64,000 bases of DNA, taken from NCBI GenBank assembly GCA_037176885.1, contig JAWWNJ010000175.1:1-64000 (forward strand), in the 5' to 3' direction. Shown piece by piece: positions 1 through 24,548 of this stretch. Numbering within the stretch: position 1 is the first letter of the stretch; each line of letters begins with the position of its first letter. Source of the DNA: Favolaschia claudopus. Taxonomy: Eukaryota; Basidiomycota; Agaricomycetes; Agaricales; Mycenaceae. Made by a program: the position numbers and the translations under genes. Under the pieces are notes generated by a model. That model saw only the letters and a list, made by a program, of their open reading frames with translations, searched no databases and was not told the DNA's origin.

Positions 1-2569
1 CATACTTGGCAGTTATAGCAGCTTTGAAGTTCTTGTAGTGCATGACCTGGTCCTCGTTGCCAGTTGCAGCCCCTTAGAGTCATGGTTAGTACTTATCATC
101 GGAGGAAAGAGCTCGAAACATACTGAGTGCAGCTAAAGTAGGGCGACAACCGCTGCCCGTCGCTTGTCAACGTTGTCGGGCATCACTTCGGAGTCATCGG
201 GCTGTTGCAGCAGAAGGCATTGAACTTCTTTGCAAATTGGGTCGGAGTCAGATTAAAGTTCGCGACGAGGAACTGTTCGGCGTGGGGCAGTGCCCCCGGT
301 GTGGAAGTTGACGGTGTCGTTGACGTCGCCGCCAACAATCATAAAGAAGCTTTCGCTCCCCGACCGTTGGTCAAGGAGGTTGAACTGTCCAACAAAACAA
401 ATCAGTTCAAAGCTGCCACGGATGCCACCGAAACGAAAAGACATACCTCCGACTGAACCACGTTTGCGACACGGACTAGCATCGGCCGCCGCAGCGCCGT
501 TGGTTGCCCGTGTACCCACAACCTTGCGCGCCCTCGACGCCAAAAACCGCACCTTCAAGTCCTCCAGCATCTCATCAGACCACTCCTTGGCCTCCTTCTC
601 CATCGTCTTTTTGTTTTTCTTCATCTTGGGAAGTCTTTTGCCCGGATGATCTGAAGTTGAAGGGTCAGGCAATGAGAAAGAGGAATAAAGGAAAGAACGC
701 ACCCTTCCGCCAACACAGACACCAATCCCAATACTTCGCATTCGCCACATTGTACCCCCGCTTCTTACCCTTCTCCTTGTGGCGTGGATGCTGGAGCATG
801 TAGTTTCGGGCATCCTTGAGGGTGACGCCGCACTCCTCCGCTATCGCAGCAGCATCCGTCTCGAACTGCTCAAACCACTTCTCGGCGCGCTCAACAAGGC
901 GCGCCAGCGCCTTCTTCTTCTCCACGCCCTTGAGCCCAGCGGTGTTGACTTCGGCGTCAGCCCTGGGGCCGGTTTTCTTGGTTCGCCGGGCCCCCGTCGG
1001 TTGCGTGGGCATGCTGGGGTTACGCGCACGGTGGGTGTTACCAGGCACGCGTTCCCGCGTGGCGTCCTCCACCCCGCTGTCCTCCAACTCGTCCTCATCC
1101 CCCTCGTCCTCCTCATCCTCATCCTCATCCTCCTCGTCCTCATCCCCCTCGTCCTCATCCTCCTCGTCGTCACTGTCATCCCCCTCCCCCTCCTCCCCTC
1201 CTCCCTCGTCCCCTTCCTCGTCACCCTCGTCCTCCTCCTCATCCGCCCTCGCCCGACCTCTCCCCTTCGCAACCTTTTTGACTTCTCCCTCGTCACCCTC
1301 CTCGTTACTCTCGTCTTCCTTCTCACCCCCCTTCGCCCGATGCTTCCCCTTCGCAAGCTTTTTCACTTCCGCTCCCCTCTCCTTGTCTCGCTCTAGGTCC
1401 TCCTCATTCCCCCTCTCCCGTGCTTTCCCCTTCCTCAACTCTCCCTCATCCCTCAACTCCGCGTCGCTGGTCACCTCTTCGACGATCGAAGGCAGCAACA
1501 CAGAAACGGGTTTACCCGCTGCTGCTGCCCTCGCCTTCTCGTCATTGTTGATGACGGCGCTGACGATGTCCCGGGCGAGATCGTCAACATCGGAGTCGGG
1601 GATGGGTAGCGTCCACCGTTCCGAGTTCATCGCATTCTTTTCGCGCTGCCTCGCAGCATGTGTCGCGCGATGCTTTCGCCATATTTCGGCGGCGGTGAGT
1701 TGGGGCTGCAGGGCGGTGGCATCCGTGGCAGGTGGCATCGCGGTGTCGTCGCCGGCATCGCCGTAAAGCGCGAGCGCTGATAGCGCGTTATCGAACTCCT
1801 CCCCGGCAGCAGCGCGCCAGTCCACGGACTCACTGCCAACGGGGGGGGCAGATGCGGGAGCACCGTCGGAGGAGACGTGAGTAGCAGTGGAGGGGTCGGG
1901 AGTAGCGGTGGAGGGGTCGGGAGGAGCGGCGGTGGGGTCTGGAGCACTGACCGGGGGAATAGGAGTGGCGGCGGGCAAAGCGGGAGACGTAGAACTGGTC
2001 GGTTTTTGTGATGCTGGTTTTTTCTTCTTGTTTTTGCGCGGGGGTGGGCCAACGGCGAAGGACTTGGGGTGCGGGGGTGATGAGACGCTGGAAACGCGGT
2101 CGGCAGTAGTGTCACCGTCGGCGTGGGCACCGACGGTGTGGTTGTCAAGAGGGTCGGCGGTGGCAGCGCCGTCGGCGTGGGCGCTGACGGCGGCATCTGT
2201 GGAGACGTCGGTTGCAGGGGTGGCGTCGGTGGTGGTGTTGGTGGCAACAGTGGCAGGGGCAGCACCCAGCTTACCGCGGCTGCTGCGACGAGGGGCGAGG
2301 GCCGCATTTTCGGTGGAGCCGGTGTTGTTGGTGTGGGCGGGCTCGTCATCCGTGGCAGAGGTGGCAGAGGCGCGTTTGGCGCGGCGGCTACGACGACCTC
2401 CTGCGCTGTTGACAGAATTGGTGTTGTCGGGAATGAGAGGATCGTTGTCGGCGCCAGAGGCCTCGTCCGGCTCAGAGTCTTCAGGTGAGATGGGATTGGG
2501 GGTCGTGTCGTCGCCGTTGGGGACCAGCAGGCCGAACTTTTCTTTCTGATTTTGTTTAGTCCTTGCCAT
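1..2569 (-). pseudogene. Acidic HMG-like companion protein, 3' part frame-disrupted, runs off left edge
   Basis: The first exon, 2569 to 703, is a 622-residue open frame. It starts MARTKQNQKEK, then has Ala/Thr/Pro-rich low complexity, basic and acidic blocks and a long Asp/Glu run encoded around 1080-1230. An intron 702-651 (GTGCGT..CAG) joins in frame to a stretch with NVANAKYW and KEAKEWSDEM motifs, the kind of helical segment I associate with HMG-like proteins next to agaricomycete TET/KDZ genes. A further candidate intron is 446-385. Below about 384 the coding-looking sequence jumps between frames and meets stops, and a last piece (72-1) with DQVMHYKNFKAA runs off the edge. So it is either a decayed copy or has homopolymer errors. 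It is transcribed head to head with the TET gene. The start at 2569 is preferred because a good 3' splice site precedes it; an in-frame Met also exists at 2671. Confidence 0.55.
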
Positions 2570-2688
2570 CTGCACCTGTAGGTTAGTGTCGCGTCGAGAC
2601 GCGCCAAAGGCGGCGGGAGACGCACCGACAGTGGAACGTCGTCGCTGAGTTGCTGGTAGGAAAAAACACAAGTCCGTTTGATGGGCGA

Positions 2689-2706
2689 CACGTGAAGTGG
2701 CACGTG
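2689..2706. promoter_or_regulatory. Paired CACGTG E-boxes in a bidirectional promoter
   Basis: Two perfect CACGTG palindromes (2689-2694 and 2701-2706) lie 12 bp apart, about one helical turn, in the 231-bp gap between the divergent companion gene and the TET gene. CACGTG is the classic bHLH site. Function here is inferred. Confidence 0.4.
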
Positions 2707-2800
2707 ACAGTCACGTTCTTCTGACGAACATCACCAGCCGAAAACGCGCTCCTTCTCCCTTCTCCCTCACTGCAGAGCGTCCCACGTCCAACGCGTTTCA

Positions 2801-4611
2801 ATGGTCCGGCTTACAGGTATGTGTCTCACCGTCAATTTCCCTTCCTATCTTCGTCCTTTCTCCCGGGCTTGGTGGTCGTTTGATGACGCGTTTGGGGCTC
2901 GGTATCCGTGCACGGAAACCGCTTCAGACGTGATTCCCGCGTCCACACATGCTCAAAACAACGCATACGGCGAGAGGTACTCCTGCAGGGGAACCGTCGT
3001 TTCATGTATTGTTTTTATCTGCTGTTTCACTCACTTGCCACCGTTGCCACCCGTTTCAATTCACTGATTTGAATTCACTAGGAGTCTTTCAAGCGCTGGA
3101 TGTCTTGAACGTCCGAACGGTAAGTTACCGCGCATTGCGTCTCTGCCGCGTCTCACGCGCTCGCAGACACGCTCTGGCCGCCCGTTCTCGTCTTGGGCTC
3201 CCATCACCGCGCCCGAATTCTTCCGTCGTCGACGCCGTTGCAGCCGCCGCAGCCGTGCCTCCTCAGGAAGAAGAATTCGGACGACCGGATTTTGTTCTTG
3301 CTTCAGAAAGCCCACCCGGCCCTTTTTTCGCGGCGCTCCCCCCACCTTTGACCGACTCGGCTCCCTCCAAATCCCGGGATAAAACCCGCTCCAAACTCAG
3401 ACGCGCCAAAGCACGTCTTGCGGTCAAGGAAAAGCGTGACCCCCTACACGATCCCCCACCTCACAAGCATCTTCGGCACCTCGTTCGCGGCAGCAAAACC
3501 GCAATTCATTCGAACATTGAACTGGTCAAAACTCGTATCACAGCGCCAGGTTGGGTTGGTCTACAGGGGGATCGAGGTGGTGACCGAGGTGTGCACACCT
3601 TGGAGTATTTTTTTGGGCCAAAGGCGCGGCGTACGGGGTTCACACTGGTGAAAGCGCCACCCCGCAAGTGCGTTTCTATATTTCCTACTTTAGGTGCCTA
3701 TTTTGACCACCAATTTTTCAGTGAATCCCGGCCTGTCGTCGATGTAGATTCACGCGTATACGCCGTCTACGGTGCTATTCCCGACGACGACAACTTCAAG
3801 ACCAACGTCCATGACCCCGCCGTTCAAGCGCTTGAAACGGCGCGCCAGCAGATGGGGCCGCCCTCCTCCCACCGAAGAGGTGAATTTGTGACTCTTACCG
3901 GGGGGCAAACACACGGTAACGGGCGCAATGCCCCTAGTTCGGTGGTGAACGGCGTGATTAACTCCGCTATCTTCTTGTCGCTTGTCACAAACGAAGCGTT
4001 TGTGAGGTTGGCTGGATTTGCCACCGGTGCGTTGCCTAAACGTTTCTTTCTAATCTATCTAAGCATTTACAGGACTCTTTGCTAACTGGGCACCGAATGT
4101 ATTCAACTTCTACGTTGACTACATGTCCGACTTTTATAACAAATACCCCCACCTGCATCGACCCTTCAAGAACAGTATATGGTCAGCGTGTACGTTTAAT
4201 CTCGGCCCCCGAACTTACACACTTGGCCACCGCGACTCCTCCAATCTCGCGTTCGGGTGGTGCGCCATTACCGCGCTCGGAAACTTCGACTACATGAAGG
4301 GGGGGCACCTTATTTTGTGGGACAGCAAACTCATCTTAGAGTTTCCCCCCGGCTGCACAATCCTCGTCCCGAGTGCAGCCATCTTCCATTCCAATATCGC
4401 CATTGCCGCCGACGAAACTCGATACTCTTTCACGCAATACACCGCCGGCGGTTTGTTTCGGTGGGTAGAGCGCGGCTTCAAGTCTGAATCAGACTACTTT
4501 GCTGGTCTGACGGCAGAAGAGGTAGAACAAGAACAGTTACGAGGGCTGCAAAGGGCGATTGAGGGTGCTGGAATGTTTTCGACATTGGCTGAGCTGGTAG
4601 AAGGAGATTAG
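2801..4611 (+). CDS. TET/JBP-family 2-oxoglutarate/Fe(II) dioxygenase (5-methylcytosine oxidase-like)
   Basis: Four exons fit: 2801-2816, 3082-3667, 3722-4026 and 4073-4611, giving 481 residues with every junction in frame. The C-terminal half is the double-stranded beta-helix domain. Metal ligands are the HxD pair in LGHRDSSN (His codon 4228, Asp 4234) and the distal His in FHSN (4387). The 2OG-binding Arg is in ETRYSFTQY (4420). The N-terminal part is Arg/Ala-rich and basic, then comes the VYAVYGAIPDD segment usual in agaricomycete members. Known TET/JBP enzymes oxidise 5-methylcytosine or thymine in DNA; activity here is inferred from the complete residue set. The first intron (265 nt) carries a TGCCA dimer motif. 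The short first exon is my choice: it ends at a GTATGT donor and restores the frame. The gene is divergent from the acidic companion and looks intact. Confidence 0.9.
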
Positions 4612-5076
4612 ATAGCTTTGTATTTCGTGAATGCCACACCTGCCATCCAAAGTTTGCGTGAGATTAGACCGACTTGCGTGATTTTGTGATAAGTGCCACG
4701 GATGCCACCGAAAATTTCGGGGGCAACTGCTGATCGTGAACTCGTTTCACACCGATAATGCTCCCCAAGTCCTCCGCGCACCTCAATCTGCTGATCATTT
4801 GTTGAGCAGGCATTCGGCACTACTTACAGGTGTGTCTACTATTATTCTTGTGAATTTTCAAAATACCACAGCAGTCGAAAATGTTTCGAGATTAATTTGA
4901 GACTTGATTGCTTCCATATCAGTCCATACTGACCATACTCTCGTCTTGACCTCTTTCACCTCCTTCATGCTCTTCTCCGTTGCTCACACGCATCCCACTC
5001 AGTGAGCTGACCTCTTATATTTCTCAATGCATTCTTGTCTATCTTCCGTGATACAGCCCGCCAAAATTACCACAAA
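4612..5076. other. Intergenic, two TGCCA-dimer motifs
   Basis: There is no credible gene in this stretch. Motif dimers lie at 4632-4645 and 4694-4707, just after the TET stop codon. The rest is AT-richer spacer leading to the basic-protein gene. Confidence 0.6.
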
Positions 5077-5669
5077 ATGCGGTGAGGTCTGTAATACCAT
5101 CGCGGACTCCGGCCGCCCGCAAACTTGCCTGTAGTCGTTATTATGAGCGGCATGTTATATCTCTCAAGCCAGCTCCTTCACTCACACACACCGCACACAG
5201 AAACAAGGAATCTCTGGCTTCAAACAATCGACGAAGAATGCGACTGTATGTGTACAAAAAATAACAACAAGACGTCTCTCAAATGCAGACTCAGACGTAG
5301 ACAAACACTACAAGAGGACTCTACCACGGCCTCTATTTACAGAGCTCAAGCACAGGCTGCCGACAGAAAATACCGTGAAAGGTGTGTGGGCAGTACATGT
5401 ACACCTTGCTTCTCTACTTCATGCTGCTCTTCAATAGCAGGCGAACATTACTGGCTACCAAACAGAGGGAGAGAAGAGCACATGCAAGGGAGCTTGAGAT
5501 ATGTCAGGAAGCACCGGAGGAGAGGATATCAGGAGGGGGGAGAGATTCAGATTTTGAGATGAAGGAGAGAGATTCTGAGATGGAATATGCTTTGCTTGCG
5601 GCAAAGCATGCTGTATTGAAAGCCAGACGTACAGAATTCCTCGCCCGTCGTGCTGCTCAGGTTGTGTAG
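5077..5669 (+). CDS. Small basic helical protein of the KDZ/TET element
   Basis: This is a tentative model. The ATG at 5077 is followed by a donor GTGAGG at 5082. A short piece reading RYYERH follows from about 5143, then an intron to an acceptor near 5273. Exons then run to 5381 and 5441-5669; intron 5382-5440 keeps the frame. The product is rich in Arg, Lys and Ala, with repeated heptad-like blocks (RAQAQAADRKYRER, ATKQRERRAHAREL) that predict long charged helices. It resembles basic proteins common in agaricomycete genomes, whose function I do not know. Nucleic-acid binding or a coiled coil is inferred. Only the last two exons are well supported. Confidence 0.45.
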
Positions 5670-5799
5670 TAAAGATATAGGCAGAATTTTTAATTGATAA
5701 TTTTCGTGGCATTGGTGGCAGACGGTGGCATCGATGGCAGAATTTGACTTGATCGCTGTGAAGTGACGCGTCACGGCGACTTTCTGTCCTTCCACCATT

Positions 5800-6800
5800 A
5801 TGTCTGTCCCCTCATACTGCACCCCTCCCCTTCATCTTGATCCTGGCGTCACATTTGAGAGCACAGAGCGGTTTTTCTTGGTGACTGGGTCACAAGCTAG
5901 AGAGAAAAGAGGGGTTTACTCTTCATGGTGTGTGATTATTCTTGTGCACTACGAGCTGTATTCTCACCGTAACTTTGCAGGAAAAGTGTTGCTCCCTTAG
6001 CTGATGAGCTCCCCTACGATGCCGTGGTCAAATATAGCTCTTGGTCTCAAGTCTTGCGTGCATGGAGAGTGTGCTGCGAAGCAGGGGATCATGATCATCC
6101 TACCCCTCCCTCCGAACTCGAGTTTGCTGTTTCTTGCCCTGCCGACAACTCCGCCGACCTTTCGCAAGACATCGGAGAGCTTCTTGAAGGTGGTAGCTTT
6201 GTCGTCGAGGGCAGTGGGACTGTCCGCGATTCTTTTCGGGAGGCAACAACAGATTTTGTCCGGACTGGCGGTGCCATCCACCGTGTAGATAACCCGCATA
6301 TTGCGGCACATATCTCTCGTGGGAGCTCTTTGGCTGCGGCTGAGGCACTTTTCCATGCCAGCCAGTCTCTCCAGCGCCTTGAGGTGGCTGAGCCGGAGGA
6401 GAATGGGCCAGCAAGTCGAATTGCAGTGGACGCGCTGGATGCGGCGTTGCATGCCTTGCTGATTACAATGGATGGGAACTGTCGCCTCAAGAGGATGGGG
6501 AATTTTGGGAGTAGTGTGGCAGTGGGGGATGGAAATGTGAGTGACGAAGATCTTCCTGGTTTGTCGGAAGTGGAGGAAAGCGATGATGAAAAGCCGCAGC
6601 TCAAGGAGGAAGGTGTTGGGCCGAAGATGAAAGCTCGTGCAGTGAGGGTGGAGGGTGGGATGAGGGTGGAGCTTGTTGAAGCAGAGGAGAATGGGGGTGA
6701 GTCGGAACATTCTCCGGACATTACCTATGAAGACATACATGGTCCCGGCTCTCTTTCCCCTGGCCTTCATTTGGTTGGAGAGGAGTATTATTACGAGTAG
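5800..6800 (+). CDS. RNase H1 N-terminal/viroplasmin-like protein with an acidic tail
   Basis: Two exons, 5800-5927 and 5981-6800, give 315 residues; the intron has a GTGTGT donor and joins in frame. Residues about 20-70 read FFLVTG..GVYSSW, then a charged loop and YSSWSQVLRAW, the pattern of the RNase H1 N-terminal (viroplasmin-like) nucleic-acid-binding fold. The middle is Ala-rich helix. Around residue 205 is LLITMDGNCRLKRM, nearly the same as the catalytic-Asp motif of the KDZ transposase encoded downstream. The C-terminus is strongly acidic. The gene ends 193 bp before the KDZ start codon. Binding to RNA:DNA hybrids or DNA is inferred from the fold only. Confidence 0.6.
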
Positions 6801-6993
6801 TACAGCAATTTTTGTTTTGTGGCATCCGTGGCAACTGTGCAAATTCGAATATATCTACGGCATTTATTTTGTGGCATCCGTGGCGCTTGTGTCAAATTCG
6901 ATTCTCTGTGGCATTTATTTTGTGGCATGCGTGGCAGTTGTGGCAACTCGATTTCGAAAAATGATGCTGTGATCTCCCTTGTCTCTTCCCACA

Positions 6994-9900
6994 ATGGCAC
7001 CAGGAATCAAGGCAGCAAGGAAGAAGGTTACTGCTCCCTCTCGCTATAATCGCTCAGTCCGTGTGCCAGCCAAGAATTCAATGAGGCTCCAAACCTTGAA
7101 AGGAACAGCAAGGAAGCAGTATGAGGAAGACAAAGAGAAGGAAATCCAAGAGGCTTATCAAGCGAATTTAGAGGGTGCGCTACTATCTAGGAGAATCTTT
7201 CGAAAGCCTGAATGCTTTGTATGTTTACCAGCAGCAGCAGCTGCTGCTTCTGAGGCTTCCAGGCGGCAAGACATTCCAGATGATGATGGAGACATGACTA
7301 CCTGGCAGGATGTGTGGGAAGGGGAAGAACCTGTCATTATCAGTCATGCTGGGGGGGAGCTACACGATCTGGAGCAAGTGTTAGCATGGCAGTTACATGG
7401 AGAGGAGAGGCAGTGAGTTTTCTTCTTTTTCAATTTCATGCCTCTTTCTTTTCATTCTTCTTTCTTCTGGCCTTTACGGTTTTGTTGCTCCTGTTGACAT
7501 GTGTTCAGGAAAAAGAAAGATACTAGAGATAGGGCAAATCTTGTGGAGCGGCGTGTGCTGGGCTTCAGAGCTCAGCAGAAGAAAATGGTAGATGCCTTCA
7601 TGAATTTCCGGGCAGAGCAACCCCACTTGGGTTCAGGGCCACCTCCCGCGAACCCCGAATCTATTCAGAAGGAGTATACTATCACTGTGATGGACCTGTT
7701 GAGTGAGTTTTTTTCTTTCTTGTATCTGCCACCATTGCCACGGACACTTTCGGATTTCGGATTTCATCTGCGACCGTATCTGCCACCATTGCCACGGACT
7801 CTTTCGGATTTGATCTGCCACTGCTGCCACACAACAAATTTACTGACATCTTTTCTAGGCACATATAAGGTGGACGTGCCACTTGTTTCAGGTGATCACA
7901 CCATTGCATCCTGCTTAGTCGCTCAAGGGGTGATCCCGAGCTCTCCGTGGGAGCCCAGATTTGCTGTCGCCATCCGCGTCTTGGAGTTGTATCGACTTGC
8001 CCGGCTTCGTTGTCCTGCGCTGGGTATCCAGGCGTGGGTCAGAACCATGGCGGACCTTCATGACCTCCCCTTCAAGGAATCCTGGACTCGATGGTTCAGT
8101 GTCTGTTTCGACTTGTATCTTGAAATTTTGAGCGACGTGGAGGCTAGAGTGAAAAAGGCTTTGGGAAGGGATTCACCGGATTGGAGGTTGAAAAACTGTT
8201 GCCCCTGCTGCACCTACGAGCTTGAGGGAGAAGAGGCTATGGTGTTTTCCATGCTGATAACGATGGATGGGAACAATTCTCTGAAACGTATACTTCGCAA
8301 GGATCGAGGGGCTGTGGATGAGGAAGGAATTCCTCTCCGTGGGAATCGGGAGAGGCATGACCCACGTGCGGAGGAGGCGGGAGGAGACTACTTTCTGTCA
8401 AGGGAGCGTGTAAACAGGTGGGCAAAGGAACGGCTGGCAGAGGAGGTGAATTTTGAGGTATTTCTTTTCCGTGGCATGTGTGGCATTTATTCCGTGGCAC
8501 TCATGGCAGCTTCTGCAGAGCGATGATCCCAAAGAGAACACTGAATGTCAAGAGAGGTGGAAGAATCTTTCTGAGGAGCTGACCGCTAAAATGTGGGGCA
8601 TCTTTGACGAGACTGGAATCTTTCTTGCGCTGTGCCGACATGGTTTCACCATACTCTTAACTGACATGGTGAGAAGTGGAGAACTGTGAGTGGTGGCAAC
8701 GGTGGCAGACACACAATTTCTCACTTATCTCAGGGCAAAATATCCTCTTGCTATCATCGATGCAGTCCTGCGTGCGTTTCCGGAACTGAAACGTCTTGGG
8801 GCTGGATATGATGTAGGGTGTGGATTCCAGACCATTATAGAGCGTTCCCCTCTTTGCCGTTTGGCTAAGGATCGACAGCTCAAAATGCTCGTGGGAGCCT
8901 TCCATGGCCACGCACATAATCGGAAGTGTCAGTTGGACTACCTTGCAACATATGTTGAGGGCTTGGGCATTGAAGATCTGGAGGGATGTGAGCGAAAGTT
9001 TTCTCAATCCAACAGTTTGGCGAAGTGCACAAGATATGCGAGTATCTTTCACAGGAAGCAAAGCATAGGAACTTATTTTGCCCATTTGGATACCTTCGAG
9101 AGTTATGCCAATTTGAGTAAGTGCATCATTCCTTTGGGAATAATGAACTGAGACTATTTTAGGCAATTTCCTTGTGAAAAACTACAAACAAGCGCTGGAG
9201 ATTCTTGCAACAGAGGATGCAGTATACAAGGTGATGCGGGAATCAGGAGTGACAGAGGCAATCATTGAGGGTCGGATTCCGGAGGAAAAGAATTATCTGA
9301 AGGGTTTGATGAAGGAACCTGAAGAAGAAACAGACCAGATGGAGTACTACCAGCAACTTGTAAATTTGGAAGCTCGATGGTGAGTCGTCTGGGTTCTCTG
9401 TCAGAAAATGTGCTCAATGGTATTCTTGTTTCTTCTCTGATTGCACCTATTGTTCCTTGCCACCACTGCCACGCCTTTCACGCACCACTTGGATCCCTGC
9501 CACACCTGCCACGTTCCGTGAACCTGCCACTGATGCCATGGAACAGGGATCGCTATTCGGAGGTGTACGTGGAGGACTCCAATGCAAGGCGTGTTTCTCG
9601 ACGCCATGCATATGAGAGCTATGAGAAGGCCTTAACTGTGGTTCAAAATACAGAGACACGGCTTGACATTCAGGAGCGGTGGGAACGAGACTCAGCTGAA
9701 TGGCAAGAGGCTGCGGGGCTGGTTGCTACAAGAAGATACAGAAACGCAGTGGATAAGCTGGAACGCCTGGTCCTGCAACGCATATTCGAGTTTGCCAAGG
9801 TTGGCCAACCAGGATTAGGTACGTGATCAGTACTGTGTTCCTCAAAACTAATCGGTGGCATCGGTGGCAGCGTATAAAATCCGATCACACATTGCAAATG

Positions 9901-10568
9901 CCTTGCGGGTCCGGTCCAGAGCAATAAGAACAGCTCTAGACAAGTATAACATCGCTGCTTCTACCCTGATTCCCCCGGGGAGGCAGCTGGAGTGGAAGGA
10001 TGTCATTGACTATGCATTTCTGGCAGAGTTCGACATCATTCGGGATGTCAGCCGGCATGAAACAGCAAGGGAATGGGCAACTCCTGCAGCACGTGAACTC
10101 TTGGACCGCTACCACAAGCTGAAGCGGGCAAAGGAGGAGATCACTCGTCTCAATATTGAAATCAAGCGATTTGTGACTTACATGCGAGATGAGCGTCGAT
10201 TTCTTTTGAAGAAGGAGAAGGAGATACATGCTACAGATCCACACCTTGCATTCTTCATTGGCAGGTATCGGGACCAGCGTGGTCGCTTTGACTCAACACA
10301 TATGGAGCGTCTGAAGGGTTTGAAGAAGCTGGGCAGGAGGTTTACGGGTAGCTTGACACCTGGGAAGAGGTGTGAACAGACGGTTGGAGATGGTGATGTT
10401 GAGGAAGATATGGAGGAGGTTGAGGAGCAGACAGAGGCAGAGGCAGACAATGGAGAGCATGATGAGGAGTATGAGGATATTGAGGATGATGCTGAGGGGG
10501 AAGAGGTCGCAGAAGTCATGGAGGAAATGGCTTTGGCAATGGCTCAAGGAGATAATGAGACTCAGTAG
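6994..10568 (+). CDS. KDZ (Kyakuja-Dileera-Zisupton) transposase, intact
   Basis: Eight exons fit with all phases consistent: 6994-7412, 7509-7702, 7859-8457, 8519-8685, 8734-9116, 9163-9379, 9547-9818 and 9871-10568. They make a 982-residue protein with no internal stop. Order: basic N-terminus, conserved DLPFKESWTRWFS region, a Cys pair region (NCCPCCTY), then the RNase H-like core. Its acidic residues are Asp in LITMDGN (codon 8266), Asp in GAGYDVGC (8810) and Glu in LEDLEGCER (8981); GAFHGHAHN and the NYKQALEIL block follow as in the family. The C-terminus is a coiled coil ending in a Glu/Asp-rich tail. Five of seven introns contain TGGCA dimers, and the last intron uses one as its 3' splice site. 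KDZ enzymes move DNA transposons; this copy looks functional. Confidence 0.92.
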
Positions 10569-11060
10569 CACAAGCCTTGTACTATATAAGGGAAATACCT
10601 TCGAAAATTGCGTGGCATCCGTGGCAGCCCTACCGTTTCCTAAGGCAAGTACCTCCGAAAATTTGCGTGGCATCCGTGGCAGCCCTACCATTTCCTAAGG
10701 GAAATACCTTCAAAAATCTACATGGCATCCGTGGCAGCCCAACCCGACCAACCCCACCTCTTTCTGTTCGGTGGCAACAGTGGCAACGTAACCCTACCTG
10801 ACCCTAAGTCATTTCGCTCGATGGCAGCCGTGGCAGGCTAACCCTACCTAACCCTAGGTGGTTTCGCTTCGTGGCAGTCATGGCAGGCTAACCCTAGCAT
10901 TTTCTCTCGGTGGCAACCATGGCAAGGGTAACAAATTTAATTTCATTACAAACGGTTTGGTGGCAACTATGGCAGCTTTCCCCTGCTTTTTCTGCCTCCC
11001 ATACACCCCGTGGCATCCATGGCAGCCTGCCACAGATGCCATACGGACCTGCCACAGTCC
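10569..11060. repeat. 3' array of TGGCA dimers with telomere-like CCCTA words
   Basis: Directly after the KDZ stop codon there are three units of about 55 bp (near 10590, 10646 and 10701), each with a TGGCA dimer followed by CCCTACC. A looser array continues to 11053. Between dimers stand TAACCCTA-type words (10790-10895) that resemble degenerate fungal telomere repeat. No gene is present. This is probably the subterminal region of the transposon. Confidence 0.65.
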
Positions 11061-11068
11061 TCTAGTTA

Positions 11069-11099
11069 GTGTGGACATGTGTGGCACAAGTGTCCACAC
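11069..11099. repeat. Inverted repeat at the element's right margin
   Basis: Nine-base arms GTGTGGACA (11069-11077) and TGTCCACAC (11091-11099) are separated by 13 bp. The repeat lies just outside the last TGGCA dimer, so it may mark the transposon end or a terminator-like hairpin. Confidence 0.4.
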
Positions 11100-11165
11100 A
11101 AAGTTGTGTAAGTTAGTGGGAGTTGGAGGTGAAACGAAGGGGTTTTCACTGGTGGCGGGACTTAC

Positions 11166-14540: not shown

Positions 14541-17500
14541 TTATATTTCGGTATATTTCACGCCTACACCTACACGCACCGTTTCAACGGGTCGAACGGC
14601 ATTTGGTTTGCAATTTCCCATCCGACAGTCATGCTGTACGGAGCATATGAACCTGATGGATTTCGCTTCCAGCACGACATGAGACTGTCCCCTTCCCGCA
14701 ATGATTTCTGCACCGTTTGGGCGTCGCAGGACCGGCCAATCGAATTGAGGGTGAAGCTGTTCGCTGCAGATGAACTGTTCCAAGGTCACAAGCGACCGTT
14801 CGCCAACGAGAAGTTCCGAAATGCGACCGATAACTGTCTTTCCGTCAGCCCCAGTTGCAAAGACCCAGCACCCAACCGTTCCTTTATCACCACTTTCCGC
14901 GGTAAGCACTTGTCCGACTCTCCATCGACTGCCATCTGATGGGTGATTGTTCCCCGTGTAGAACGTCGCAGCCTTCGTTGTGTGCCATTCAACCGGCAAA
15001 ACTCTCGAGGGCATGGGCTTGACGACACCGGGTTCTATTTTGGCTGGACGAACCCAGCCCAAATGCCGCTGGAATATCGGGTCGGCAAGTAGCACTTTTC
15101 GTACGCCTTTACCTGCCTGAATCCAGTGTTTAGATCGTGAATCCAGCCAATAGCCCCCAGACAGGATATGTTTCACCCGGTCCATTGAAGCAAACTTTGC
15201 AGCGATGTCTCGGCTTGGCGCTATTCGATTGCTAAAAATCGAGTTGAGGCGGAAGACACCATTGTAAGCTTCATAGATCTCGGTTGCCCATCGAATCAAC
15301 GGTCCAAAGCGTCGTATGTCGTCCGGTATATGTGCCAGTAGATGGAGTTTGATTTTGAGAAGAATGCGAAGCGGATCAACCTTGTCGAAGGCGTCCAGAA
15401 GATTAGCAATTGCGATCTTCAGCTCAGCCAAGTATTCATCCATGTTATGAATCTCGGGCACCCAGAGCCGCGCTCCAAGCTCTCCAGCAGCCTTGATCAG
15501 TGTGAACTGTTCGGGAGTCGATATCGCATGGACATGGAAGGGGAGGATCTGCATCAGTGTCTTGAAGTGTTTTCCGATGAGGTTGTTTCTGTATTGCATC
15601 ATGTACGACGCACGTAGCTATCGAATCGTGAGTCTCGCTTCTTTTCTTGTTTGGGATATTCTTACCGCGGGAACAGTTAAACCAGACAAATCCGTAGATT
15701 GTAGTCGAGCGGCCAGTAAGAGACGATCTTCATCTGACCATTGATTTGTGTTGAGAAGATGCCAGATATATTTGATTACCCCCAAGAGAATTGTATGCAG
15801 GAGCTCGACAGGTGTGTCCTGAGATGGATCCAAGCCGAGGATCTCAAGCAATGGATTCATTTTATCTCCCGGCTGTGATTTGAGCCACGCTTCAAGTTCA
15901 TCGGCAATGTCCTCGTCGCTACGTGCGGAATCGGCCAATTTCATTGCCTTCGCTTTTTCAAGTAAGATGTCAATCCAATGTTGTGTGGTTTTGTCCTTCG
16001 TTCCCGTCGATCGCTGATGCTCTGTTATAGCTTTCGCATTTCCAAGCATGGAGAAACGAAGCTGTTGTTTCAAGCTCTGCCGAATCTCCTCTGCGTCTCT
16101 CGCCACTCCGGCGAAATGACATTTGTGGTATGTCTCGTCAGACTCTTTTTCGAGCTTCGTCCCTCCCCAGTTGCATTTTCGACAGGGGAAGTTGGCGTTG
16201 CTCCCCATATGGCATGCTTCCTCTGACTGCTGAGGATTATCGGCAGGAAGGCCGGGGGCGCGGATTATGAAACGAGAGATGCGGTTCGTTGCGGCATTAT
16301 AACACCGAACCGGATTTGTTTCCGTGGCCTTGACCTGGTCCCGAAACGCAGCAAATTGTTCGGCAGAGGAGGCATGAGGTGAGGTTGAGACGTAATGAAC
16401 ATGGTACTCCTGCTGAAGCATACGACCAGGTAAGCAGCCGTTCGCAGTATACATGTTCATGTGCTTGTTATACTGTTTTGACTTGTTGCCAGATACATCG
16501 TCGGCCCAAGGGGAAACCATTACGACGAAAAGATCTTCATTATCATTGACGAGTTTGCGCATGTCGTTCGGCATTGGTGCAACCTCTGAGCCATCAACCC
16601 AATTAAGATCACCGAAGTGAGCTATAACGTCGTTATAATCGAGCTCGAGGTCATCTGCATTAATCATTTTGCACCCCATTATGTGCCACAGACCGTCCGG
16701 GCGTGGAGCGACAACATGCACATCAGAAGTGAGGCGGTTATGCCGGGTGATCCAGGTGTGAGGAATGACGAAGGTCCCATCTCGGAGCTGAGCTACCTCT
16801 TCGATCCAGAAGCGCTTGTGTCCTTTTGAAAACATCGGAGTCAACTGTGCAGGCGAGTATTCCATCCAGCGCTCTGCCTGGTATATTTCGGATATCGGAC
16901 CAGTGGTTTCCTCCGGATAGAATCGCATATGGGGTGCAACAAGAGGATTTTCAAAGTCCCGCGCAATACTACCGCGAATATCGTTCACGTAGAAGATGTT
17001 CTCAAGGTCTGAAACCACTTTGGTTGGCGCGCCTCCGCACAACGACCCAAGATTTTTTTGGAGTTTTCGGAATGATTTCAGCGAAGGAACATTTGGTGCA
17101 CCGAGCTGCTTTGCGAAATGTATCACCAAGGACATTTGAGCACTTGAAAATCGGCATCGAGGGAGGTTGTCCATCACGTCCAACAACATTGCCTGCGTGA
17201 GTTATGTTGTCAGGTTTCGTACCTCGATGATTTCGGTGAAATTTAACTTACAGTTTTATTTGGATATGGATGATATTCCGAAGACTCAAGAAGCGAAGGA
17301 TCCCAGCATCCGGGATCGTCTTCTTCTTCCTCGTCAAAAGCTTTGGGTAAGTCATCCCCAATGAAGGGTTCCTCTTCCTCCTCGCCAAAGAGATCTTCTC
17401 GCTGTGCCTCTTCGAGCATGCGCTGAAACTCTTCCTGCAGGAACGAACGAGTATCTGCCGGGGTGGAGACAGCTTCAGGTGCGTCATTTTGGCCCAATTG

Positions 17501-20470: not shown

Positions 20471-20813
20471 TCTCAAAACCGGACGTCCGTCCTAGACAGA
20501 ATACACGATTAGCTCAGCGTCGTGTTAGTTAACAACAACAGCTCTATTATGCACCTAGACAGAATACACGATTAGCTAGAGAATACTGTAAGTAATGTAT
20601 TCCTGGGTACAGAGTAATAGAAGCCTCACCTCAGCGTCGTGTTAGTTAACAACAACAGCTGAGGAAAAGCTTGGCGCGTGACGTGACGTGACATGTCACC
20701 GCTAGCGATGACGCAGTTGGATTCAGAGTTGGGGAGCCTGAAATCCACTTGCGTCATAGTTGCCTAAAGATAGATTTTAGGTTTGGCTCGCTCGCTTCCC
20801 GTTGGTTTCGACA
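20471..20813 (-). repeat. 3' LTR of the Copia element
   Basis: 343 bp, identical as read to 24549-24891. It contains two internal copies of a CTAGACAGAATACACGATTA unit and of GTCGTGTTAGTTAACAACAA, and a run of TGACG words. Confidence 0.9.
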
Positions 20814-23164
20814 CTCCCACTCGAGGTAAACCGTAATCCCAAGGCTCTTGCAAACTTCCAATGCTTTTCCCGGGAAAGAGGTTTAGTAAGGATGTCGGCC
20901 ACCATGTCGTGGGTAGACACGTAGCGAATGACGGCCTCGCCTTTTGCCACAATGTCGTCGCGAATGAAGTGGTATTTGCGCTGTATGTGTTTGGTGCGTG
21001 CTCGGAATTGTGGGTCCCGACAGAGGATGATAGCTGCTTGATTATCACAGAAGAGTTCTGTGGGTCCGCGCTGCTCGTGGCCGACTTCTGCAAAGAAGGT
21101 GCGCAACCAGGCTAGGTGCTGCCCGGCGTTTGACAGTCCAATGTATTCTGACTCAGTTGAGGATAGGGCAACCATGCCTTGCCGTTTGCTGGACCAGCCC
21201 AATGCTCCTCGACCAGATATGAATGCGTATCCGGAGGTGGATCGAGAAGTCTCGTTGTCACCAGACCAGTCGGCGTCAGAGAACCCGTGGAAGTCAAGAT
21301 CCCCAGCAATGTCCGAGCCGTCGAAGCACAGCTCAAGGTCACGAGTATACTTCATGTAGCGCAGGCCGCGCTTTGCAGCTTCCCAGTGGCATGCTTTGGG
21401 GTTTGCACTGTACCGTCCAAGCACGCCAACAAGGTATGCCAAGTCAGGTCGTGTCCCCTGGACAGCATACTGAATTGAGCCAACCACAGTAGCGTATGAC
21501 ACTGTCTCTCCGTTTATGGTCTGTTGGAGTAGTGTGGTGTTGTCGACGGGGTCTTCAGCAGTGAGGCGAGGGGTTGTAGCCATTGGAGTCTTTGACGGGT
21601 TACAGTCTGCCATACCGCAACGCTTAAGGACAGCGTCAATGTACTTCGTTTGGGAAAGGGAGATAGTGCGTCGCTGTCGGTCCCGTTTGATCTCGATCCC
21701 GAGGATGAACGAAGCAGCTCCAAGGTCCCGCATCTTGAATGTGGATGCGAGGAGAGCTTTTATCTCGTCCATGTATGGACGGGATGAGGCTGCAAGCAGT
21801 AGGTCGTCAACGTAGACCACCAAGTAACATATTTCCCCTTTCTTTCCCTTGAAGACGTACAGGCATGTCTCCGCGTCCAGCCGGTATGCACCAAGCTCCA
21901 GCAGTTTTGCGTCAAGTGTGACATTCCACACGCGACCAGCGTCTTTCAGACCATAGAGGGAACGTTTGAGTCGCCAACAGAACCCATCTGGAATATCCAC
22001 TCCCTCCGGCGGTGAGACGTAGATGGCGTCCTCGAGGACACCGTTGAGGTATGCAGTGGATACGTCCATCTGGTCCAGCTCCAGGTCGTACTTGGCAGCC
22101 AGCAAGCAGATGATGCGGATGGACTCAAGGTTCGCAACGGGGGCAAAGGTCTCCTTGAGGTTTCCACCCTGCTGTCCAAAATCCCGGGCGACGATACGGA
22201 GCTTGTATCGTTCGATGTTCCCCTTGCTGTCCAGCTTTATGCGCATGACTGGTTTGGTGCTGATTGGTTTGACTCCAGCGGGTGTGGGGACGATCTCATA
22301 GACATCGTTCTCAGCCAAGTTTCCCATCTCCTCCGCAAGTGCCGCCCTCCACTTATCAGCGTCAGGTCCGCTGAATGCCTCAGTGAGTGTAGCGGGAGTG
22401 GGAATTTCACTTGGGCCGCTATTGGCTACGCCAGCGAAGAAGGCGTCGTCAATGTCAATGAGCTCGATTTCAGGTTCTTCCTCAATGATTTGTGGAAGGT
22501 CGGCGACTTGGAGGGGAGGGGATTCTGGCTCGGCCGGCTGAGGCAGCGGTTCGGGTTTCCGGAGCTGCTGAGGGCCATCTGACTTCTGTAGAAGGTTTCG
22601 GTTTCGATCCGCTGGTTTTCTGGCACGTTCTCCTCGTCGGAGCGTGGGCTCGTCAGGCTTTGGCAGAGCTGGGACCGGTACTGGTGGTGCGACGACGGTG
22701 GGTAGTGGACGTGGTGACGCAATGGGATTTTTCCTGCGGGCAATGTGCTCAGAGATGGAAGTAGGGTTTACTGGTACAGGAATGCGAGAGGGTGTTTCGC
22801 GTTTTACTGTGCTGATAGTCTCTGTGTCTGTCTCCCCCCCTTGCCGAATGGAAAAAGTCCCTGGTGCTCCCACTGGCTCGACATCGTCAATCACGCTCCC
22901 ACTGTCTGAGGGCTCCCTCTCCTGTTCAGGACGGAACAAGAACTCCCACTGAGTTTGGGGTGCAGGGTCCTGAAGGACAGAGGTGTCTGTTTCCCCTGTC
23001 TCATCGAAGCGGACATGTCGGCTGTGGAAGATGGCCTTGGTCTTTACATCCAGGAGGCGATATGCCTTCTTCCCATCCCCCACATCACCATTACCATAGC
23101 CAAGCATGATGCACTGGCGGCCACGGTTGGAGAACTTCCCGACACGCTTGTCCTTTGGTATCAA
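20777..23164 (-). CDS. Copia reverse transcriptase-RNase H
   Basis: 795 codons from the first Met (23164); the frame is open a little upstream (PIQFRPFGCTGYALIPK), which is the segment after the integrase core. Next come KFSNRGRQCIMLGYG and a Pro/Glu-rich linker. RT blocks follow: RYKLRIVARDFGQQ, DVSTAYLNGVLED, SLYGLKDAGRVW and the catalytic YVDD (LVVYVDDLLL). RNase H has DADW, STESEY and DNQAA, and a late HDMVADILTKPLSREKHW. All catalytic motifs are intact. It is separated from Gag-protease by a frame change at the deletion junction, so a normal polyprotein cannot form. Confidence 0.9.
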   Translation of the reverse strand: MIPKDKRVGKFSNRGRQCIMLGYGNGDVGDGKKAYRLLDVKTKAIFHSRHVRFDETGETDTSVLQDPAPQTQWEFLFRPEQEREPSDSGSVIDDVEPVGAPGTFSIRQGGETDTETISTVKRETPSRIPVPVNPTSISEHIARRKNPIASPRPLPTVVAPPVPVPALPKPDEPTLRRGERARKPADRNRNLLQKSDGPQQLRKPEPLPQPAEPESPPLQVADLPQIIEEEPEIELIDIDDAFFAGVANSGPSEIPTPATLTEAFSGPDADKWRAALAEEMGNLAENDVYEIVPTPAGVKPISTKPVMRIKLDSKGNIERYKLRIVARDFGQQGGNLKETFAPVANLESIRIICLLAAKYDLELDQMDVSTAYLNGVLEDAIYVSPPEGVDIPDGFCWRLKRSLYGLKDAGRVWNVTLDAKLLELGAYRLDAETCLYVFKGKKGEICYLVVYVDDLLLAASSRPYMDEIKALLASTFKMRDLGAASFILGIEIKRDRQRRTISLSQTKYIDAVLKRCGMADCNPSKTPMATTPRLTAEDPVDNTTLLQQTINGETVSYATVVGSIQYAVQGTRPDLAYLVGVLGRYSANPKACHWEAAKRGLRYMKYTRDLELCFDGSDIAGDLDFHGFSDADWSGDNETSRSTSGYAFISGRGALGWSSKRQGMVALSSTESEYIGLSNAGQHLAWLRTFFAEVGHEQRGPTELFCDNQAAIILCRDPQFRARTKHIQRKYHFIRDDIVAKGEAVIRYVSTHDMVADILTKPLSREKHWKFARALGLRFTSSGSVETNGKRASQT

Positions 23165-24417
23165 AGCATATCCCGTGCAGCCGAACGGTCGGAACTGAAT
23201 GGGGTCAACCTTTCGCTTGAACAGGAAATGAGGGAGATCTGGAATGAGGGGAGGTATAGGACGTTCGAGAGTGTGAGGAGTGTCTGTTTGCCTTTGACAG
23301 TGCTGAGGAGCTGAATTTCCCCGATCCCAGTGGCGTCAGCGAACGACTCATCCCCAAAGCGTACTTTTCTCGGGGGGTCAAGCTGCTGAAAGGTCTTAGC
23401 TATGAACCACTCCAGGACCGGTACCATGTGTGTTGACGCGCCGGTGTCAAGGACTGTTGTGTAGACGAGGGCAGGTGTCGTTTCACTCGCAGCATAAGCT
23501 CCAATGCGTTTTGCAAGGTCCTTCGATACAGAGTTTCCGAATGCAGTAACATAATGTCCGCTCTCATCGCCCCCTGCATTTAGCGCCTTCGCCCCATCCT
23601 CCTCCGCCTTCTTCTTGAGGTCGCGGCAGTCCTTGGTGTCATGGTAGCAAAGGCCGTGGACTTGGCACTTCTTTGTGGGGCCACCGGTTTTCTTCCCTTT
23701 GTAGTTCGTCGACGAAGACGGCACTGCAGCTACGAGCGCGGACTCCTGTGGGCCAGTGATGATGGGGTTTCCCAACTCGGCTCTGATGCGCTGCTCAGCT
23801 TCGGAGAACTTGAGCTTTCCGCCCTGGGGGACACTGTTGACGGTCTGGGAGACGAACAGTCTCCACCCAGTTGTGTCTGGCAGTGATTTGAGCAGGATCC
23901 ATGCCATGAACTCATCGTCGACCGGCCGGGACATACTTGTCAGCGTCAGGCTGCCCGATCGAAGTTTGGTGAGGTGGTCGTCGAGCTTGGTGGAAGGGTC
24001 CCACTTGGCCTCTAGCATTTGGACAAGGGTGAAGAACGCGGTGGCACCAACGTTGACCTTCTCGTACTCCTTGACAATGGCATCCCATGTTTCCTTTGCG
24101 CCAGAGAGATGAGCGACGGATATGAGAATGGGGTTGGAGATGAACTTGTGGATGATACCACGAGCTCGGGCATCGCGTACGCGGAAAGAGTCGCGGATAG
24201 CGCTAGTGGAAGTGGTTACGACACCATAGATGGCAGAGACAGTGCTGGCAGATGCAGCTGCAGTTTCTGCGGCCGCCTGAGTCGCCGCGTTGTCCTCCCC
24301 AGAGATGATGAGGCCAACCTTCTCTCGGGCAAACTCTCCCTCCATTCGAATCTTCCAGATTGGATAGTTTTCTGCCCCGACCAGCACCGGAGTGGTGGGT
24401 TCAGATGTAGTCGCCAT
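23161..24417 (-). CDS. Copia Gag-protease polyprotein, truncated after protease
   Basis: The frame has 418 codons from ATG 24417. It opens with the Copia Gag pattern (GAENYPIWKIRMEGEF, then LSGAKETWDAIVKEYE and LLKSLPDTTGW). A Cys/His knuckle-like stretch follows (CQVHGLCYHDTKDC), then the aspartic protease motif VLDTGASTHMV near residue 325 and the NVLYLPSFQISLIS block that precedes the gag-pre-integrase region. After LISCS the sequence jumps to post-integrase DNA in another frame and stops. The usual gag-pre-integrase domain and integrase core are not present. Confidence 0.85.
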   Translation of the reverse strand: MATTSEPTTPVLVGAENYPIWKIRMEGEFAREKVGLIISGEDNAATQAAAETAAASASTVSAIYGVVTTSTSAIRDSFRVRDARARGIIHKFISNPILISVAHLSGAKETWDAIVKEYEKVNVGATAFFTLVQMLEAKWDPSTKLDDHLTKLRSGSLTLTSMSRPVDDEFMAWILLKSLPDTTGWRLFVSQTVNSVPQGGKLKFSEAEQRIRAELGNPIITGPQESALVAAVPSSSTNYKGKKTGGPTKKCQVHGLCYHDTKDCRDLKKKAEEDGAKALNAGGDESGHYVTAFGNSVSKDLAKRIGAYAASETTPALVYTTVLDTGASTHMVPVLEWFIAKTFQQLDPPRKVRFGDESFADATGIGEIQLLSTVKGKQTLLTLSNVLYLPSFQISLISCSSERLTPFSSDRSAARDML

Positions 24418-24548
24418 GTCTGGCGGATGACGTGGCCTGGAGTTGCGAGCGTTTGCAGACTCCTGCGGCTAGTTGGTTTTGCTGTTGAGCTGTGTAGCGT
24501 CCGGCTAGCGTTGCGCAGTGAAACTGGCGTCCTACGGGGCCCATAACC

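Follow-up and report, generated by a model that had tools for sequence, protein, structure and literature searches.

A TET-carrying KDZ transposon of Favolaschia claudopus with an element-wide DNA motif that may serve as a recognition code

A KDZ transposon with a TET-like gene at the contig edge

The window, by which we mean the whole 64,000-nt stretch of Favolaschia claudopus DNA analysed here, opens inside a KDZ DNA transposon, whose right part (positions 1–11131) it contains and which leaves the contig on the left. The element accounts for ~11.1 kb of the window and other DNA for the remaining 53 kb. Its right end was placed at 11131, where related inverted repeats in the genome end together: 27 of the 36 non-self genome matches to the terminal inverted repeat (TIR) of the window end at query base 572 or 575, which corresponds to window position 11131 or 11134. 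The right TIR region (10569–11131) ends with ...GTGGGAGTTGGAGGTG at 11131. On the left, the element runs past the contig start, which cuts the leftmost gene, and a query with window positions 1–900 retrieved homologues on contigs C55 and C7 only, besides itself. Thus, the mobile unit exceeds 11.1 kb instead of measuring 7.8 kb, the limits of 2801–10568 given in a preliminary description of this DNA are wrong, and the target-site duplication (TSD) of the window copy itself cannot be checked.

The KDZ transposase gene (6994–10568, plus strand) consists of eight exons (6994–7412, 7509–7702, 7859–8457, 8519–8685, 8734–9116, 9163–9379, 9547–9818, and 9871–10568), which, as previously stated, join in frame; all introns are GT-AG, and the 982-aa product contains no internal stop. 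Its assignment is supported by a profile search (Pfam PF18758, E = 5.6e-72, 242 bits against a cut-off of 26.6). In an alignment of 30 proteins including the window protein (P0123), the D241 and E446 columns are invariant and the D386 column is at least 90% conserved; we take these three columns to be the catalytic residues, so that the D-D-E set appears to be kept, as had been claimed. The predicted structure of the transposase is a weak model (pLDDT 65.8, pTM 0.57) that gave no match at E ≤ 0.001, and it therefore says nothing about which protein might read the motif described below.

The TET-like dioxygenase gene (2801–4611, plus strand) was reconstructed with splice models as exons at ~2801–2816, 3082–3669 (5′ part uncertain), 3721–4026, and 4073–4611. 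Its catalytic set, already recognized in the preliminary description, is retained: all 19 genomic paralogues examined have HxD, the distal His, and the Arg, and among 29 homologues HxD and Arg are found in all 29 and the distal His in 27. The N-terminus is another matter. The conserved TRSGRPFSSW stretch and the SVVDAV stretch that follows it lie in different frames in the window, with one extra base near 3218–3222 relative to the C7 copy, an apparent one-base frameshift that could also be an assembly error. In the splice models a single-frame reading of this region requires intron retention, and the NCBI model (P0001, 406 aa) skips it. The frameshift leaves the catalytic domain unaffected. 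Hence, of the earlier proposal that both genes are apparently functional, the part concerning an intact KDZ gene and a preserved TET catalytic domain appears sound, but a functional whole TET protein is doubtful.

In profile searches, Pfam Tet_JBP (PF12851) matched 5 of the 19 paralogue exons at E = 0.0033 or weaker, and the window exon was unmatched. Sequence and profile searches among PDB chains retrieved no TET relatives; only fold comparison did, with the predicted structure of the window TET closest to CcTet, followed by NgTET, TET2, and CMD1. CcTet of Coprinopsis cinerea (7w5p, 8jkk, and 7vpn; PMC11040006, accessible text) shares 13% identity with the window protein over aligned residues and has Gly331 where the latter has Asn. 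The Gly331 position, five residues after the HxD His326, corresponds to Asn1387 in human TET2 according to the same text; counted in this way from the HxD His, the residue is Asn in 29 of 29 homologues of the window TET. By inference, this Asn favours a conventional 5mC pocket. The AG-type TETs of Kyakuja elements are described as having Gly or Ser at this position (Kojima 2025, PMC12730594, accessible text), in contrast to the Asn found throughout the present set.

The three further genes that had been noted are present and are here called A, S, and V. Gene A (1–2569, minus strand; tblastn exons ~8–73, 439–651, and 704–2569) has its 3′ part cut by the contig start and corresponds to P0121, an NCBI ‘partial’ model of 712 aa; it encodes a low-complexity protein with a conserved stretch at residues 540–698 of the model and has homologues in the C1 and C37 elements described below. 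Gene S (5056–5669, plus strand) is small and multi-exon, with RYRER-type basic segments and provisional exon limits; by tblastx it is conserved 3′ of TET in six elements. Gene V (5800–6800, plus strand; exons 5800–5927 and 5981–6800) encodes 315 aa with an N-terminus that, presumably, resembles viroplasmin-type domains, without a Pfam match. Pfam placed none of A, S, and V in a family above cut-off, and of the encoded proteins only KDZ gained a domain. In tblastn comparisons with the C1 and C37 elements, identities were 28–31% for A, 27–50% for V, and 39–42% for S, all three being more diverged than KDZ and the TET catalytic exon.

Complete relatives reveal 8-bp target-site duplications and long inverted repeats

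Two complete five-gene relatives were delimited. The first (C1:55516–70231, 14,716 bp) carries 576-bp inverted ends that are 99.5% identical, inward of which weaker similarity continues; it ends CACCTG...CAGGTG and is flanked by the TSD CATTCCAC. The second (C37:1073595–1086081, 12,487 bp) has TIRs of ~540 bp at 93% and the TSD CGTTGGAG; BLAST adds one complementary TSD base to each side of this element, so that a check at the BLAST limits yields only 6 bp. Both contain homologues of A, S, V, TET, and KDZ, which does not imply that A, S, and V are intact there. Gene order in C1 is that of the window, and in C37 the TET–S–V block is flipped with respect to A and KDZ. Seven nonautonomous elements with a perfect 8-bp TSD were also found, on C2, C69 (two copies with common flanks), C12, C15, and C32 and at C1:98660–100626. 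All nine complete relatives thus have a perfect 8-bp TSD and long inverted repeats (TIRs of ~0.4–0.6 kb), and eight of them are independent insertions. The two C69 copies (C69:1115715–1118462 and C69:1128638–1131379), which share TSD and flanks ~13 kb apart, represent a tandem segmental duplication.

TET-bearing KDZ transposons of Agaricomycetes were reportedly described by Iyer et al. in 2014. The association asserted in the preliminary description is indeed published, and the TET-bearing Kyakuja and Zisupton elements of Agaricomycetes likewise combine a KDZ transposase and a TET/JBP gene in one mushroom element (Kojima 2025, PMC12730594, accessible text). According to that text, Kyakuja elements have a 7-bp TSD, CA..TG ends, and no TIRs, unlike the present relatives with their 8-bp TSDs and TIRs; Zisupton elements have 8-bp TSDs and TIRs and in this agree with these relatives.

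A tandem dyad occurs throughout the element and mostly outside coding exons

The most informative feature of the element is a DNA motif that had been mentioned only in passing. It is a dyad, TGGCANNNRTGGCA, made up of a tandem pair of RTGGCA half-sites 9 bp apart. The window contains 32 dyads on both strands, all within 414–11041, against an expected 0.07; the remaining 53 kb of the window contain none. Ten lie in the right TIR region, part of them spaced 49–55 bp, ten in KDZ introns 2, 3, 4, 6, and 7, three in gene A coding DNA, and nine in other DNA outside modelled coding exons, which places 29 of 32 outside such exons. Genome-wide, 2168 dyads (1081 + 1087 on the two strands) compare with 290 (156 + 134) for the reversed pattern. 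Nearly all half-sites are preceded by a purine, though the count did not demand it. Most half-sites lie within dyads: 63 of 78 RTGGCA in the window, 166 of 190 in the C1 element, and 77 of 100 RTGGAA, the form described in the next section, in the C37 element. The motif exceeds chance by far, but the earlier term ‘private DNA motif’ applies to a whole clade of elements rather than to this one.

Dyads are densest in the TIRs, and many of those in the C1 element lie in local repeats. Within the KDZ gene they are confined to introns. In the window, C1, and C37 genes together, with the TGGCA form counted in the first two and the TGGAA form in C37, coding DNA contains 0 dyads in 8202 bp (2949 + 2643 + 2610) and introns contain 37 (10 + 23 + 4) in 1734 bp (626 + 731 + 377). 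The dyad-bearing introns are 2, 3, 4, 6, and 7 in both the window and C1, and 4 and 6 in C37; the KDZ gene on C9, covered in its 3′ half, has TGGAA dyads in introns 4 and 6 as well. In intron 6 the dyads lie on the minus strand in each of the four genes; agreement is less strict in the other introns. Of the 21 intron pairs from the window, C1, and C37, 5 exceed the best alignment among 30 shuffles and 16 do not, which argues that the dyads largely outlast the sequence around them. Their occurrence on both strands in introns favours a role at the DNA level over one at the RNA level. In intron 7 (window 9856–9871, and also in C1) the 3′ splice site directly follows a TGGCA half-site (TGGCAG|exon), so that the dyad doubles as acceptor.

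Coding exceptions occur in two places. The modelled coding DNA of gene A contains three dyads in the window, seven in C1, and three in C37, and the TET N-terminus contains six in C1 and two in C37. In gene A and the TET N-terminus of C1:55516–70231, the coding dyads read as low-complexity repeats of the Ala-Thr-Pro-Ala-Thr type. A constraint acting on the DNA may shape these protein stretches of gene A and TET.

A concerted one-letter switch separates two groups of elements

The C37 element contains 40 dyads of a TGGAA form and no TGGCA dyads, whereas C1 and the window contain 90 and 32 TGGCA dyads, respectively, and no TGGAA dyads; without the purine rule the C1 count is 91. Both half-sites are changed, with spacing unchanged and partly in the same introns, and TGGCA/TGGAA hybrid dyads number zero in the window, C1, and C37 elements. 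Among 30 TET loci examined, which were drawn from 150 scored matches and 275 candidates of a first look, TGGCA dyads alone occur at 15, many of these loci being near-identical copies of a few lineages, TGGAA dyads alone at 2, and neither form at 13. Among loci matching the window TIR, the 20 examined all have TGGCA and no TGGAA, as expected from that query. Genome-wide, TGGAA dyads number 620 + 648 against 200 + 228 for the reversed pattern, with inverted arrays among the 100 places listed.

Further letters were considered and rejected. TGGTA (119 + 125, or 244, against 186 + 180, or 366, reversed) is not enriched and forms no arrays among the places listed; TGGGA (301 + 325, or 626, against 214 + 222, or 436) forms no clusters among the 100 places listed. 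Two loci taken for TGGAT and TGGAG variants (L059 and L062) proved to be local repeats instead.

The switch lies between two KDZ clades. In a tree of 27 rows, hand-picked among 120 homologues listed, one clade (100/100) comprises the window, C1, C7, C42, C64, and C81 and adjoins Mycena galopus and M. albidolilacea proteins, and a second (100/100) comprises C37 along with four more proteins from F. claudopus, including one from C9, and adjoins an M. venus protein. For the window, C1, C37, and C9, the motif assignment comes from the KDZ gene itself; for C7, C42, C64, and C81, it comes from the surroundings of TET genes on the same contig, which covers two of the five rows in the second clade. 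Since the clades adjoin different Mycena proteins, the split is older than these Favolaschia copies, horizontal transfer aside.

CpG depletion in nonautonomous copies

CpG observed/expected ratios are 0.17–0.29 in five nonautonomous TGGCA elements (one C69 copy, C69a, being left out) and 0.23 in the TGGAA one, against 0.75–1.16 in their flanks; they are 0.70–0.85 in the three five-gene elements (window, C1, and C37) and 1.05–1.18 in five motif-free TET loci. The depletion of the nonautonomous copies fits methylation and deamination of the family, copy age being uncontrolled in this comparison. Within these copies, the motif-bearing TIRs have ratios of 0.22–0.47 against 0.13–0.18 in the interior. 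In KDZ genes, the dyad-bearing introns (0.48–0.57) are no richer in CpG than the exons (0.58–0.68), so that protection of CpG by the dyad is not visible in this comparison. The CpG loss on C2, C69, C12, C15, and C32 (flanks 0.75–1.14), in a genome otherwise near 1, is a sign of methylation-driven decay.

Discussion

Three features of the dyad speak for an element-encoded, sequence-specific reader: it is spread across the element, it persists in KDZ introns, and one of its letters has changed in concert. Based on these findings, we propose, with a probability of roughly two in five, that this TET-carrying KDZ transposon bears an element-wide recognition code, through which a putative reader would guide TET oxidation to copies of its own family. 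First, an element-encoded DNA-binding protein would read two tandem RTGGCA half-sites 9 bp apart and, within its own family, would coat the TIR arrays together with the noncoding gaps, among them the introns. Copies marked in this way would then attract the transposition complex and TET, and TET, presumably recruited by the reader, would oxidise 5mC at marked copies rather than genome-wide. Reader and sites would drift together, as from C to A, until a new, non-cross-reacting family arose. A first guess for the reader would be gene A, followed by V, S, or the KDZ N-terminus. Identity does not set gene A clearly apart from V and S as the fastest-diverging gene, so that A as reader stays a guess. 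Gene S was rejected as a reader peculiar to the motif families, as S-like pieces, some of them weak, also lie beside motif-free TET copies.

Several observations count against this proposal: the density of dyads in TIRs, the coding dyads in A and TET, the possible TET frameshift, the absence of a Pfam match for every encoded protein but KDZ, and the fact that no CpG protection is visible in KDZ introns. Moreover, with 13 of 30 TET loci bearing neither dyad, TET elements manage without it. The main rival, which we regard as quite possible though on the doubtful side, is that the dyad is a site for the transposition complex only, bound by KDZ or an accessory protein as subterminal repeats are elsewhere, with internal copies arising by local duplication or serving titration and with TET unguided. 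The dense inverted TIR arrays agree with this, as they also occur in nonautonomous copies, whose TIR pairs stand 2–4 kb apart and which lack the genes by tblastn-type matches; in addition, Kojima speculates that Agaricomycete TETs act in a non-target-specific manner (PMC12730594, accessible text). However, four KDZ genes have kept dyads in their introns, and introns 4 and 6 carry them on both sides of the letter switch, which a role at the ends alone does not need. For the TIR arrays, a role in transposition is at least as plausible as a reader recruiting TET, and both may hold.

It is rather unlikely that the dyads are sites of a host transcription factor or chromatin protein acting in promoters, enhancers, or insulators, with the switch reflecting another host factor. 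Such sites commonly occur in introns, intergenic gaps, and TIRs, and the genome-wide counts include some isolated matches, but comparable clusters are missing from the other 53 kb of the window, and a family-wide concerted change is easier with an element-encoded reader. Least probable of all is functionless selfish growth of tandem repeats with TET as a decaying passenger, since, even though tandem arrays expand easily, many C1 dyads lie in local repeats, and the window TET is possibly frameshifted, isolated dyads sit in separate small introns, half-sites agree without hybrids and nearly all follow a purine, and the TET residues are conserved in 19 paralogues.

The proposed guidance of TET by a reader would resemble the anti-silencing of plant VANDAL elements by VANC proteins, with an oxidase of its own added. 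TnpA of the maize En/Spm element is said to bind arrays of a short subterminal motif and to be linked to demethylation; that element is of the CACTA type and has no known TET gene, and its motifs are subterminal, whereas the present dyads are element-wide. VANC21 of Arabidopsis VANDAL21 sits on a short motif in introns, intergenic DNA, and terminal DNA, and VANC6 targets of VANDAL6 carry a different motif (PMC5735166, PMC10398659, accessible text of both). As far as those texts go, the likeness includes a family-specific, noncoding, often tandem short motif that differs between related families, here with coding exceptions in A and the TET N-terminus, and silencing as the counter-force. On the same basis there are differences: VANDALs are MuDR-type plant elements, VANC is not known to be an oxidase, and the present element carries a TET gene; for VANDALs, binding and loss of methylation were measured.

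The presence of TET in KDZ elements and the anti-silencing idea, which Kojima 2025 proposed for these TET genes, are already in print (PMC12730594, accessible text), and the motif system is the new, testable part. The main text of that paper contains neither the word ‘subterminal’ nor ‘tandem repeat’, and its accessible text describes no short private DNA motif; by titles and the opening parts of abstracts, we found no description of such a motif for KDZ elements in the open literature. Taken further, and held more tentatively still than the proposal above, the data may point to a sequence-addressed DNA demethylation system, in which reader and TET would both be encoded on a fungal transposon, reader and sites would co-evolve, and at least two mutually blind groups (TGGCA and TGGAA) would coexist in one genome. 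Such a system would be convergent with VANC, eraser included, and would even spell out its address in low-complexity coding stretches, in the form of Ala-Thr-x-Ala-Thr repeats.

Were TET guided by the dyad, a transposon would have combined a short site and a reader into an addressable DNA demethylase, with specificity predicted from one base; this would also explain how many TET-bearing families can coexist in a genome that is not erased throughout. The two motif groups, found side by side in a single genome, serve as mutual controls, which makes the idea directly testable. If TET is unguided, the dyad is still a likely recognition site of a KDZ transposition system.

Other features of the window

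Beyond the element, on the minus strand, adjacent ORFs of 358 and 527 aa (14541–17201) resemble part of another transposon and have no Pfam match at E ≤ 0.1. Two long ORFs of 852 and 435 aa (20777–24468, minus strand) appear by eye to be Ty1/copia-like, with gag-like and reverse transcriptase/RNase H-like character. Several ORFs between 49389 and 62986 resemble, again by eye, Agaricomycete F-box/leucine-rich-repeat proteins.
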